From Alphaproteobacteria bacterium (GTDB lineage Bacteria > Pseudomonadota > Alphaproteobacteria > CAAHEQ01 > UBA3637), in contig JAFYHG010000015.1 of the NCBI GenBank assembly GCA_017539265.1, forward strand, positions 1 to 60,083: a stretch of DNA of 60,083 nt, read 5' to 3'. The translations under genes were made by a program, and so were the position numbers. Shown here in pieces: positions 3,318-7,066 of this stretch (its first letter is position 1; each line of letters opens with the position of its first letter). The notes below the pieces were generated by a model. That model worked only from the letters and a program-made list of their open reading frames with translations, did not search any database and was not told where the DNA came from.

Positions 3318-3490
3318 TAAGGATCCTCCTTGTTAAAAATTTCCCCTCGAACCCCAAGGTATCTTATTTTATTTGCTTTGTCAAGCGAAAAGATAAAAAA
3401 AATAGAACTTCCCCGAAATTGCAGAAAAAGATTGATTTTTTCTTTTTTTTGCGCTTTAATAGAGCATATTCATCACAAGGGAGGTTTGTT

Positions 3491-4447
3491 ATGGTTCGCC
3501 AAAAAATAGAAGAATCCGTTCCGGTACAAGAATTAAAAACGCCGGTATTTGAATCCGTTAAGCATCTGGGAAGACCCATTTTAATCGTATTGCTGTCATT
3601 TTTTTGTATTTTTGTCGGTGTGTTAATTTATCAACTCACCACACCGGTTGAAGATTTAACTTTATCCCCCAAAAAGCAAACAACACTGATTAAGGAAAAC
3701 GCAAAAAAGAGTGCGAAAAGCAGTGCGCTATTTCAACCTCATAAACCGGTCCAATCGATCTTAAGGGTTGAGAACACATCCTCTCCAAAAATTCAAGAAA
3801 GCGTTCCCACTCCTGTGCCTCAACCCCAAGAAGTCCCGCCGCCCCCCGAACCCGAGGTTCAAGGTGATGCCCCCGTGACGCCATCAGCACCACCCGAAAC
3901 ACCGGTGGTTGAACCGGTTATATCGAAGCCGGCTGAGCCCTTATTAAGCCTGGAAAACACCTTACAGTTAAGGGATCATCTGGCGCAAGGCCAATCGTGC
4001 CTTGAAGATTTAAAAATCCTCATGAAAAATAACCTGCCCAATCGGGAAGATAAAGACCGCCTAATCGAAAAATTAATGCCCGTATGCACGGTGCGTTCTG
4101 TTTTTCAAGGGATAGAAGATACTTTTTACAAAAACCGCAAAAAGGCTTTAATGACCTACTATCGCTTAAATAACCCGACGTGGCTAGCCTATTTAAAAAC
4201 TTTTGGATCCAGTTTGGTTGATATTCGGAAACTCAACCCCTCCAAAGAAAAACCGAAAGACATGATTTCTTCGGCACAAAATGCGCTTGTGATGAAAAAT
4301 TTATCTGAGGCCCTGCAAAAAATTCAAAAATTACCACCCGAAATTCGTTCAGAGTTTAACGACTTTATCGGACAAGCACAAACTTATTTGGCCGCACAAA
4401 AAGAAGTTGAAAACTTAATTCTCTCATTTGGTCGGAAAGGAGAATAA
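3491..4447 (+). CDS. Short mitofilin/Mic60-like inner-membrane protein
   Basis: 318 residues from the ATG preceded by GGGAGG; the frame is open further upstream but without a ribosome site. Order: cytoplasmic N-terminus (1-28), one transmembrane helix (29-49), Pro-rich linker (about 104-150), and a helical C-terminal domain (155-316). The last domain has the layout of the mitofilin signature of alphaproteobacterial Mic60: LENTLQLRDHLAQG, a VDIRKLNP segment, SAQNALVMKNLSEALQKIQKLP, and a closing amphipathic helix. The next gene is hemY-like, and mic60-hemY adjacency is the known alphaproteobacterial arrangement. The long coiled coil normally found between membrane helix and signature is missing, replaced by the Pro-rich linker, and hemC/hemD are not upstream. 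Role in inner-membrane shaping or envelope contact sites is inferred. Confidence 0.7.
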   Translation: MVRQKIEESVPVQELKTPVFESVKHLGRPILIVLLSFFCIFVGVLIYQLTTPVEDLTLSPKKQTTLIKENAKKSAKSSALFQPHKPVQSILRVENTSSPKIQESVPTPVPQPQEVPPPPEPEVQGDAPVTPSAPPETPVVEPVISKPAEPLLSLENTLQLRDHLAQGQSCLEDLKILMKNNLPNREDKDRLIEKLMPVCTVRSVFQGIEDTFYKNRKKALMTYYRLNNPTWLAYLKTFGSSLVDIRKLNPSKEKPKDMISSAQNALVMKNLSEALQKIQKLPPEIRSEFNDFIGQAQTYLAAQKEVENLILSFGRKGE

Positions 4448-4448
4448 T

Positions 4449-5633
4449 ATGATTAAATTTATCTTTATTCTGATTAGTATTTTTACCGTCGGATTTTTTA
4501 TCGTCAAGGATACCTGGATGGTAACCCTTCAAGGATTCGGATATGAATTGAAAGCGTCCGTTCTCATCCTGATTGTAGGGGCATTTTTGCTCTTTTATCT
4601 GATACATCTGCTTAAAAAACCGTTCGGTTGGTGGGGCCGGTGTCAAAACTGGTTTGCAAAAAGAAAACAGGATCAAAAAGAAGCATTTTTGTTGTTGGCG
4701 CTTAAAACCGTTTTGGATAAGAATAGCGAATCCGTTAAACAATTATTAAAACAAAAAAACAAATTTTTTGACAGGAAATCGGATGAAAATTATATTCTGG
4801 AAGCCTTATTCAATCCGACACCACATACATTTGAACAACTGATTCATCGGGAAAACACGGAACTGGCCGGTATCAAGGGACTTTTGGATTATGCCCAAGA
4901 AGACGGCAACTGGACAGAAGCCGGCAGACTCCTGCAAAAAGCCGCCGAAAAGTATGAAAAAGAGCCTTGGGTTTGGGATTCCTTATGGACGGTTCAAATT
5001 CTTCAAAATGATTGGTATGAAGCCTTAAATACATTGGAACGCTTGAAAGCACAGGGACAAGTTGACAAGGCCGAATATGCCAAACGCAAATCTTTATTGC
5101 TGTTAAAATTAGGTCGGGTTGCTGAAGCCTACAAACTGAACCCTGATAATCAGGCGATTATTTTGGCCTATGCCCGAAGTGAACCCCAAAAAGCCGACAA
5201 GTTAATTCGTCATCTCTGGTCCAAGGAACCTTGCATGGATGCCTTTAATATCTATTGGCAAACAATTGCGACGGAAAAACCATCTAAACAAACTAAGGCC
5301 ATCGATAAACTGGTTCGGGAAAATCCCAAACATCGCTTATCCTTGTGGGTTTTGATTGAAACGGCCATTAAACAGGAATCGTGGGGACCGGCCAAAGGGT
5401 ATTTATCGGACTACTTGGCAATGTATCCTCTTACGACGCAAATTGCACACCTGATGGCTGAGGTCGAACGCCAAGGCTGGCATCATCTGGAAGAAGCCCA
5501 AAAATGGGAATTAAAGGCGTTGGAAGCCCCATCTGAAAAGGGCTGGATTTGTTCTTCCTGCGGTCACCGGACAGATACCTGGGAAATTGTATGTCCGGCC
5601 TGTAATGCTTTCGGTGAAGTTATTGGGAAATAG
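4449..5633 (+). CDS. HemY-like TPR membrane protein with C-terminal zinc ribbon
   Basis: 394 residues. Two N-terminal transmembrane helices (about 3-20 and 32-54) are followed by a basic stretch and a long array of TPR-like helices: the HemY_N plus TPR layout. The C-terminus carries a CxxC...CxxC ribbon (WICSSCGHR ... IVCPACNAF), similar in placement to the rubredoxin-type domain of LapB. The gene starts 2 nt after the mitofilin-like stop with a GGAAAGGAG site inside the upstream gene, so the two are one operon. Despite its name HemY of this type is not a proven haem enzyme; a scaffold role at the inner membrane is the safer reading. No haem biosynthesis gene is near. Confidence 0.78.
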   Translation: MIKFIFILISIFTVGFFIVKDTWMVTLQGFGYELKASVLILIVGAFLLFYLIHLLKKPFGWWGRCQNWFAKRKQDQKEAFLLLALKTVLDKNSESVKQLLKQKNKFFDRKSDENYILEALFNPTPHTFEQLIHRENTELAGIKGLLDYAQEDGNWTEAGRLLQKAAEKYEKEPWVWDSLWTVQILQNDWYEALNTLERLKAQGQVDKAEYAKRKSLLLLKLGRVAEAYKLNPDNQAIILAYARSEPQKADKLIRHLWSKEPCMDAFNIYWQTIATEKPSKQTKAIDKLVRENPKHRLSLWVLIETAIKQESWGPAKGYLSDYLAMYPLTTQIAHLMAEVERQGWHHLEEAQKWELKALEAPSEKGWICSSCGHRTDTWEIVCPACNAFGEVIGK

Positions 5634-5659: not shown

Positions 5660-7066
5660 ATGGTATTTTCGGACAAAATTCATATGGAAGCGGAAAACAT
5701 GGCCGAATCCCTCATTCACTTTAATGAAATGAGAAAAAAAGCAAAAGAGATTGATCTGGAATCTTTGGATAAACCCGCACCCCAAAATTCGGGACATATA
5801 TCCAAAACGGAAGCCGTCTTGGCGCGCTATCCGGAACCGGCCCAAGAAACCGATTCCGAACGGGAATATCGCAACCAGCAAATTGAATATGAACAGGGAC
5901 CTTTTTTTGAAGCAAATAAAGCCTTAGCAAAATCGATCAATGCATTATCAAAATATAATTTTACAAACACTGTTTTGGCAGCGGCCTGTAATTTTACGGA
6001 AATGGCTGAAAAACATCCCCGTTCCGGTTTTATCAGGGAATTTGGCCCGTTAATTGAGGAAGAATTACAGGCCGCCCATACCCAACCGTCTTTAAGGTTG
6101 GCCGCATTTACCACCTCTTATTTTTGGAAGGAGGCGAATTGGGCTCATCTGATATCCGCCGTTCCGCCCACAACAACGAAAGGGGAATTAGTTGAATTTT
6201 TTGCTCAACCGCTCTACTCCGACCCCGGTAAAAGGGTAATTGACGTATTACCCGACAGAATAACAATGGGCATTATTCGTGCCACAGGGAAAAAGGAAAA
6301 CGAAAGCATTCCGTTGGATTTCAAAAAAGAGAGACCCTTTATTTCTATAAACGAGGGTGTCAGATTAGTTACCTCAATCACGGAACTGTCAAAACAAAAT
6401 TTCACAAACCGAATTTTAACTTCAACCTCTTATTTTGGTCTTGTTTTAGTTAATCCTTTTAACACCGTCCGCACTATAAGTGATTTTGGTCGGGGTTTAT
6501 ATCAGGAACTAAAAGAAAATCCCGATAAACCGTCTCAAAAACTGGTAACACTGATGACCGAAAAACGACTCGAGGATGAGGATATCAAGGCATTAACAAC
6601 CGCTGTTACCCCCAAAACAACTAAAGAAGAATTATCCGAGTTTTTCAAGGCTCGAGAAAGATGGACAACGGGCCTTAGGATGATTGATTATTTGAATCAT
6701 CACATTGTTATGGAAATGGGGCGTTTTCTCCCTGAACAAGACAAATTGGATTTATGGTCTATAAAGCCCGAAATGGTTTATGATTTCAATGTTGGCGGTT
6801 CTTTAAGGAAATTTTCACCGGAATCCCAAAAGAAAATTTTGGATACCGTACCGGATTCTGACAGACGAAAAGAAATTGAAGAAAATATGAAGCATAAATT
6901 AATGGGATTGCATATTTCTGTCGGTTTAATGGGGGGCGGAAATGTAGATACAGATACACTTGATATCTATGGAAAATTCCCAACCATCCGCAAACGGCGT
7001 ATTTGCTCACACGCGGATAACCGTAAATTCTTTTCAGAGCACGAACATTTCCGCAGCGCCTATTGA
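5660..7066 (+). CDS. Hypothetical protein with internal duplication
   Basis: 468 residues with a strong AAGGAGG site 7 nt before the ATG; I recognise no family. There is no signal peptide or membrane helix. Two halves are related: residues about 82-210 (INALSKYNFTNTVLAAACNF ... AVPPTTTKGELVEFF ... KRVIDVLPDRITMGIIR) and about 231-360 (ITELSKQNFTNRILTSTSYF ... AVTPKTTKEELSEFF ... LRMIDYLNHHIVMEMGR). The C-terminal tail (about 425-468) is rich in Gly, His, Arg and Lys. A soluble helical repeat protein is likely. It follows hemY by 26 nt and may be co-transcribed with it. Confidence 0.75.
   Translation: MVFSDKIHMEAENMAESLIHFNEMRKKAKEIDLESLDKPAPQNSGHISKTEAVLARYPEPAQETDSEREYRNQQIEYEQGPFFEANKALAKSINALSKYNFTNTVLAAACNFTEMAEKHPRSGFIREFGPLIEEELQAAHTQPSLRLAAFTTSYFWKEANWAHLISAVPPTTTKGELVEFFAQPLYSDPGKRVIDVLPDRITMGIIRATGKKENESIPLDFKKERPFISINEGVRLVTSITELSKQNFTNRILTSTSYFGLVLVNPFNTVRTISDFGRGLYQELKENPDKPSQKLVTLMTEKRLEDEDIKALTTAVTPKTTKEELSEFFKARERWTTGLRMIDYLNHHIVMEMGRFLPEQDKLDLWSIKPEMVYDFNVGGSLRKFSPESQKKILDTVPDSDRRKEIEENMKHKLMGLHISVGLMGGGNVDTDTLDIYGKFPTIRKRRICSHADNRKFFSEHEHFRSAY

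Follow-up and report, generated by a model that had tools for sequence, protein, structure and literature searches.

A reduced Mic60 without coiled coil, encoded with hemY in an apparently heme-less and oxidase-less alphaproteobacterial family

Bacterial Mic60 is read as the precursor of cristae, and in Alphaproteobacteria its gene stands in a unit of the order hemC-(hemD)-mic60-hemY. The mitofilin domain consists of eight helices, along which the lipid-binding sites LBS1 and LBS2 follow in a described order (PMC12631773). LBS1 is the membrane-binding element of fungal Mic60, which the coiled coil is proposed to assist (PMC5460017). Loss of Mic60 is described as widespread in anaerobic eukaryotes without cristae, and the switch to mitofilin proteins that are not integral to the membrane has been called a singular event, exclusive to Euglenozoa (PMC12631773). 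Here, we report a Mic60 without coiled coil, kept together with hemY in a family that, from its genome sequences, is apparently both heme-less and oxidase-less.

The gene pair lies near the start of the window (the whole 60,083-nucleotide stretch analysed) and has the following parts:

3477..3484, + strand: ribosome-binding site sequence of mic60, AAGGGAGG
3491..4447, + strand: mic60 without coiled coil (mitofilin-domain protein); ATG at 3491, stop codon at 4445-4447, 318 amino acids
3560..3640, + strand: N-terminal membrane helix of mic60, residues 24-50 (AlphaFold helix; hydropathy, 2.77 at residues 29-47)
3641..3940, + strand: Pro-rich unstructured linker of mic60, residues 51-150 (pLDDT mostly 47-70), at the site of the coiled coil in canonical Mic60
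3941..4444, + strand: mitofilin domain of mic60, eight predicted helices within residues 154-315
3998..4000, + strand: Cys170 of mic60, first of a clade-specific cysteine pair (Phe or Tyr in most canonical Mic60)
4085..4087, + strand: Cys199 of mic60, partner of Cys170 in the pair (canonical Mic60 mostly has Ala here)
4100..4171, + strand: helix alpha4 of mic60, LBS1 counterpart, with conserved Phe212 and a basic patch
4434..4442, + strand: ribosome-binding site sequence of hemY, GGAAAGGAG, within the 3' end of mic60
4449..5633, + strand: hemY, 394 amino acids, with a membrane N-terminus, a TPR region, and a C-terminal CxxC...CxxC ribbon

With alphaproteobacterial Mic60 (PF09731) the protein shares a C-terminal mitofilin domain, an N-terminal membrane helix (residues 24-50, by hydropathy and AlphaFold), a downstream hemY, and a prediction of eight helices; it differs in lacking the coiled coil, in its Pro-rich linker, in the cysteine pair and the basic LBS1, and in scoring under the Pfam cut-off. 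The mitochondrial Mic60 of MICOS (7pv1) is linked to it through a shared profile of the mitofilin domain, but the window system has no coiled-coil tetramer and its host no detected respiratory oxidase. Euglenozoan Mic34 and Mic40 (PMC12631773) are likewise divergent mitofilin proteins of reduced architecture and, like a signal-peptide branch in genus g3 of the host family only, have no membrane helix; they are eukaryotic, arose independently, and serve cristae, whereas the reduction described here is bacterial and stepwise.

Results

A direct scan of the protein against Pfam PF09731 and NCBIfam gave no mitofilin match, its score staying under the gathering score of PF09731, which is a threshold for detection and not a trait of the protein's anatomy, and the Pfam Mitofilin search over the host genome gave none either; PF09731 was matched by 2 of 25 host-family members (best, 4.7e-9). 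Profiles built from canonical Mic60 behaved differently. One made from 45 canonical alphaproteobacterial Mic60 C-termini and zero host-family sequences ranked the window protein first of 274 window open reading frames (53.5 bits; E = 2.4e-15), against a top score of 11.1 bits among 2000 shuffles. Profile A4 (ten canonical Mic60 plus four coiled-coil members of the host family) had one match only over the whole host genome, at 3962-4417 (E = 4.7e-14), and also matched the solved eukaryotic Mic60 mitofilin domain 7pv1 (E = 1.8e-10); a PDB sequence search with the host-family profile alone gave no match, nor did the viral contigs searched. Profile-profile alignment (hhalign) of the window family with Mic60 gave E = 6.3e-13 over 156 columns, and a second comparison was similar; the L030 row of the alignment used (A3) starts with one extra Met, with an expected effect of nil, as the matched columns are all C-terminal. 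The bridge homologue L022 (genome G020) matched the window protein at 2.6e-7 and Pfam Mitofilin at 36.5 bits, over the cut-off. The sequence-only reading of this DNA had assigned the C-terminal 160 or so residues to mitofilin and named a Pfam search as the check: the Pfam model stayed silent, the canonical profiles bore the assignment out. The outcome that this reading had named as refuting it, a missing profile match together with an unlike predicted fold, does not hold on the sequence side. Judged by its sequence, the gene at 3491-4447 is a reduced alphaproteobacterial Mic60 orthologue, not a canonical Mic60.

An AlphaFold2 model built on 25 homologues placed helices at residues 154-165, 171-179, 185-199, 204-227, 230-242, 255-267, 271-279, and 283-315, with pLDDT mostly 87-98 in the helix block. 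The model of canonical Mic60 L032 has a matching helix series of similar lengths, preceded by long helices at the coiled-coil site, and the eight helices follow in the same order in the two predictions. A PDB fold search with the window model returned generic helical bundles near the top and did not list 7pv1_D; since the control L032 model placed 7pv1_D no higher than rank 12 (Z of 7.1, with an rmsd of 2.1 over 53 residues), its absence for the window model says little.

Between residues 50 and 154, no helix was predicted by AlphaFold, and the linker (21% Pro) contains zero Pro-free 28-residue stretches. Heptad periodicity was scored on Pro-free 28-residue windows only, with a home-made measure that is not a published coiled-coil predictor: 43 of the 45 reference Mic60 have a linker with such a stretch and heptad periodicity (score, 3.6-6.6), and the membrane-anchored coiled-coil-less host-family members (n = 20) have no Pro-free 28-mer or score at most 2.9. 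Three g8 members, whose heptads lie in a stretch shorter than 28 residues that gives the score no window, were classed as coiled-coil because the heptads are visible. For the window protein, heptad score and AlphaFold model agree that the coiled coil is missing and a Pro-rich linker takes its place, as had been read from the letters. The term "minimal" used in that reading holds only in a relative sense: several other alphaproteobacterial Mic60 are equally short or shorter, mostly with heptads. References L149 and L164 likewise have no Pro-free 28-mer, and the coiled coil may be reduced elsewhere too. In another family of the class, the Mic60-like open reading frames L163 (genome G037) and L164 (genome G398) are independently shortened to 265 and 240 codons; G037, a congener of L164's genome, keeps heme-synthesis and oxidase genes.

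The proposed coupling to a hemY-like gene is secure: one base separates the mic60 stop from the hemY ATG, each gene has a good ribosome-binding site, and the downstream product matches Pfam HemY_N (34.3 bits; cut-off, 31) and a reference HemY profile (152 bits; E = 2e-45). It resembles HemY/TPR_hemY_coli (PF07219, TIGR00540) in the N-terminal match and the TPR region and differs in its C-terminal zinc-ribbon-like motif, which also occurs in most canonical alphaproteobacterial HemY of the comparison set, and in being retained where heme synthesis is undetected. HemY is encoded directly 3' of mic60 in the homologous loci examined, and this link is the sole constant of the neighbourhoods compared. 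Canonical genomes have hemC about one gene upstream of mic60 (by coordinates). Here, the loss of hemC and hemD read from the letters stands for hemC, which is missing from the host genome; for hemD, judged from neighbours only, it extends to the finding that neither a hemC nor a hemD-like gene lies beside the pair. The window pair has no conserved neighbours. In the coiled-coil clade the pair is divergent from mreB-mreC-type genes and followed by a SpoU methylase, and in g3 a PpiD/SurA-like foldase lies upstream; because neighbours vary between clades, they carry little functional weight. Upstream in the window are an open reading frame that resembles a trimeric autotransporter adhesin, having a membrane anchor of YadA type besides alanine-rich repeats (231-1505), and, between it and a response regulator (2181-2858), an OmpH/Skp-like periplasmic chaperone (1640-2101). 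The open reading frame at 5660-7066 (468 amino acids), 26 bases past hemY, matched nothing in Pfam, and the relatives compared had no homologue of it in their neighbourhoods.

In draft genomes, profile searches found HemC, ALAD (hemB), cytochrome bd, and heme-copper oxidase (COX1) in 0 of 33 host-family genomes; the same searches were positive in the same class (19, 19, 11, and 20 genomes, respectively). DsbB was likewise found in 0 of 33. ATP synthase subunit a occurs throughout the host family (f1), and many of its genomes have two a-subunit genes (those of the host on contigs C1 and C8), possibly reflecting a second, different ATPase. On this gene content, the host probably does not respire. 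Its family comprises small-genome bacteria in which mic60-hemY persists without detected heme synthesis or terminal oxidase. Two genomes sampled from two other families, G034 (81% complete) and G053 (87%), have none of the four heme and oxidase markers and keep a coiled-coil Mic60, so that respiration and the coiled coil seem to have been lost independently of each other.

Homologues of mic60 were found in 41 of 43 host-family genomes, including all of the good ones (27/27); the relatives identified are metagenome genomes of uncultured bacteria, among them one recovered from the abomasum of a roe deer. The hemY tree has two clades: the coiled-coil genera g5, g8, and g9, whose coiled coil is short (support, 99/96), and the members without coiled coil (100/100). 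Nested in the latter is a single branch (100/99) of six g3 members whose N-terminus resembles a signal peptide. On this tree, the coiled coil was lost on one branch, together with the appearance of the cysteine pair and the basic LBS1. The membrane helix of the coiled-coil-less clade (window residues 29-50) is well conserved over g1, g2, g4, and g6 in the pattern LC-[IV]-x-GG-x-LIH; its Cys and small residues suggest a helix-helix contact. The six g3 proteins (L020, L024, L025, L027, L104, and L105) are mitofilin-domain proteins of about 200-276 amino acids with hemY next to them, an apparent cleavable signal peptide (assigned by eye), and no further membrane helix; the anchor thus appears to have been replaced by a signal peptide in this branch.

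Cys170 and Cys199 occur as a pair in 26/26 coiled-coil-less sequences and in 0/53 others. In the AlphaFold model, Cys170 immediately precedes alpha2 and Cys199 closes alpha3; both sit at one end of the hairpin and should be close in space. The LBS1 helix, identified as alpha4 via helix order and alignment, has Phe as its aromatic residue (Phe212 in the window) in all 26 coiled-coil-less sequences, and its mean net charge is +3 in these against 0 in the others (p = 3.8e-9, uncorrected for shared ancestry). Since a single branch acquired both the basic charge and the cysteine pair, their correlation represents one event. In two close pairs of relatives, dN/dS was 0.06 and 0.09 for the mitofilin domain and 0.41 and 0.37 for the N-terminal half/linker, values that indicate purifying selection on the domain in these relatives.

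Discussion

We lean towards reading the reduced Mic60 as a tethered, periplasmic, membrane-binding envelope module that works with HemY and is not a crista shaper. Its domain would lie in the periplasm and bind phospholipid via the LBS1 helix (Phe212 plus the acquired basic patch), and a flexible tether of about 100 residues would let one basic mitofilin domain reach phospholipid from its inner-membrane anchor. The protein would act as a monovalent or weakly self-associating module instead of a rigid tetrameric scaffold. Since LBS1 binds lipid and the coiled coil is proposed to assist it, loss of the coiled coil alone plausibly spares binding and weakens shaping, by analogy with the fungal protein. 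Together, Mic60 and HemY might organise an inner-membrane domain or a contact between inner and outer membrane, not respiratory invaginations; the divergent mreB-mreC genes of the sister clade and the foldase of g3 count for such an envelope role. A disulfide between Cys170 and Cys199, which the model places at one end of the hairpin, may form and may staple or rigidify the domain; the absence of DsbB, the sole disulfide-forming oxidase sought, counts against it. As a broader and distinctly more tentative proposal, which we would not put at even chances, mitofilin domain and HemY could form an envelope module of ancient origin that at its core works independently of respiration, with coiled coil, anchor, and heme synthesis dispensable and the crista role added later.

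The mitofilin domain might instead be a shrinking accessory subunit that only stabilises or positions HemY, membrane binding being no longer its function. Its coupling to hemY across the examined loci would fit, as would the stepwise reduction in which the coiled coil went first and the membrane anchor apparently followed, but on such a subunit we would expect neither an LBS1 aromatic kept without exception, with basic charge going up and not down, nor strong purifying selection on the domain in two pairs, and we regard this account as unlikely. Persistence of canonical-type membrane shaping, with multivalency from the membrane helix or from clustering in place of the coiled coil, is less probable again. 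LBS1 is conserved and is the membrane-binding element in fungal Mic60 (PMC5460017), and euglenozoan Mic34 and Mic40, themselves not integral to the membrane, remodel the membranes of gammaproteobacteria when expressed there (PMC12631773); however, no known oligomerisation element is left here, and no terminal oxidase or heme synthesis was found for an invagination to serve. That an unrelated helical-bundle protein precedes hemY by chance was suggested by the protein's own lack of a Pfam or NCBIfam match and by fold searches with only generic bundles near the top; the family-independent profile refutes this in practice, as do the genome search, hhalign, and bridge homologues including L022, and we give it almost no credence.

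The family offers a natural series, graded from a coiled coil through a linker alone to an apparently soluble form, for testing which part of Mic60 binds and bends membranes. To the euglenozoan non-integral mitofilin proteins, the g3 branch would provide a parallel that arose independently in bacteria. Relevance to crista evolution, claimed from the sequence alone, is a reasonable link, but the host is probably non-respiring, so that membrane bending by this protein stays putative. A family that keeps Mic60-HemY without detected heme synthesis or oxidase challenges the view that the pair serves respiration or heme, and the ancestral job of Mic60 may have been independent of respiration.
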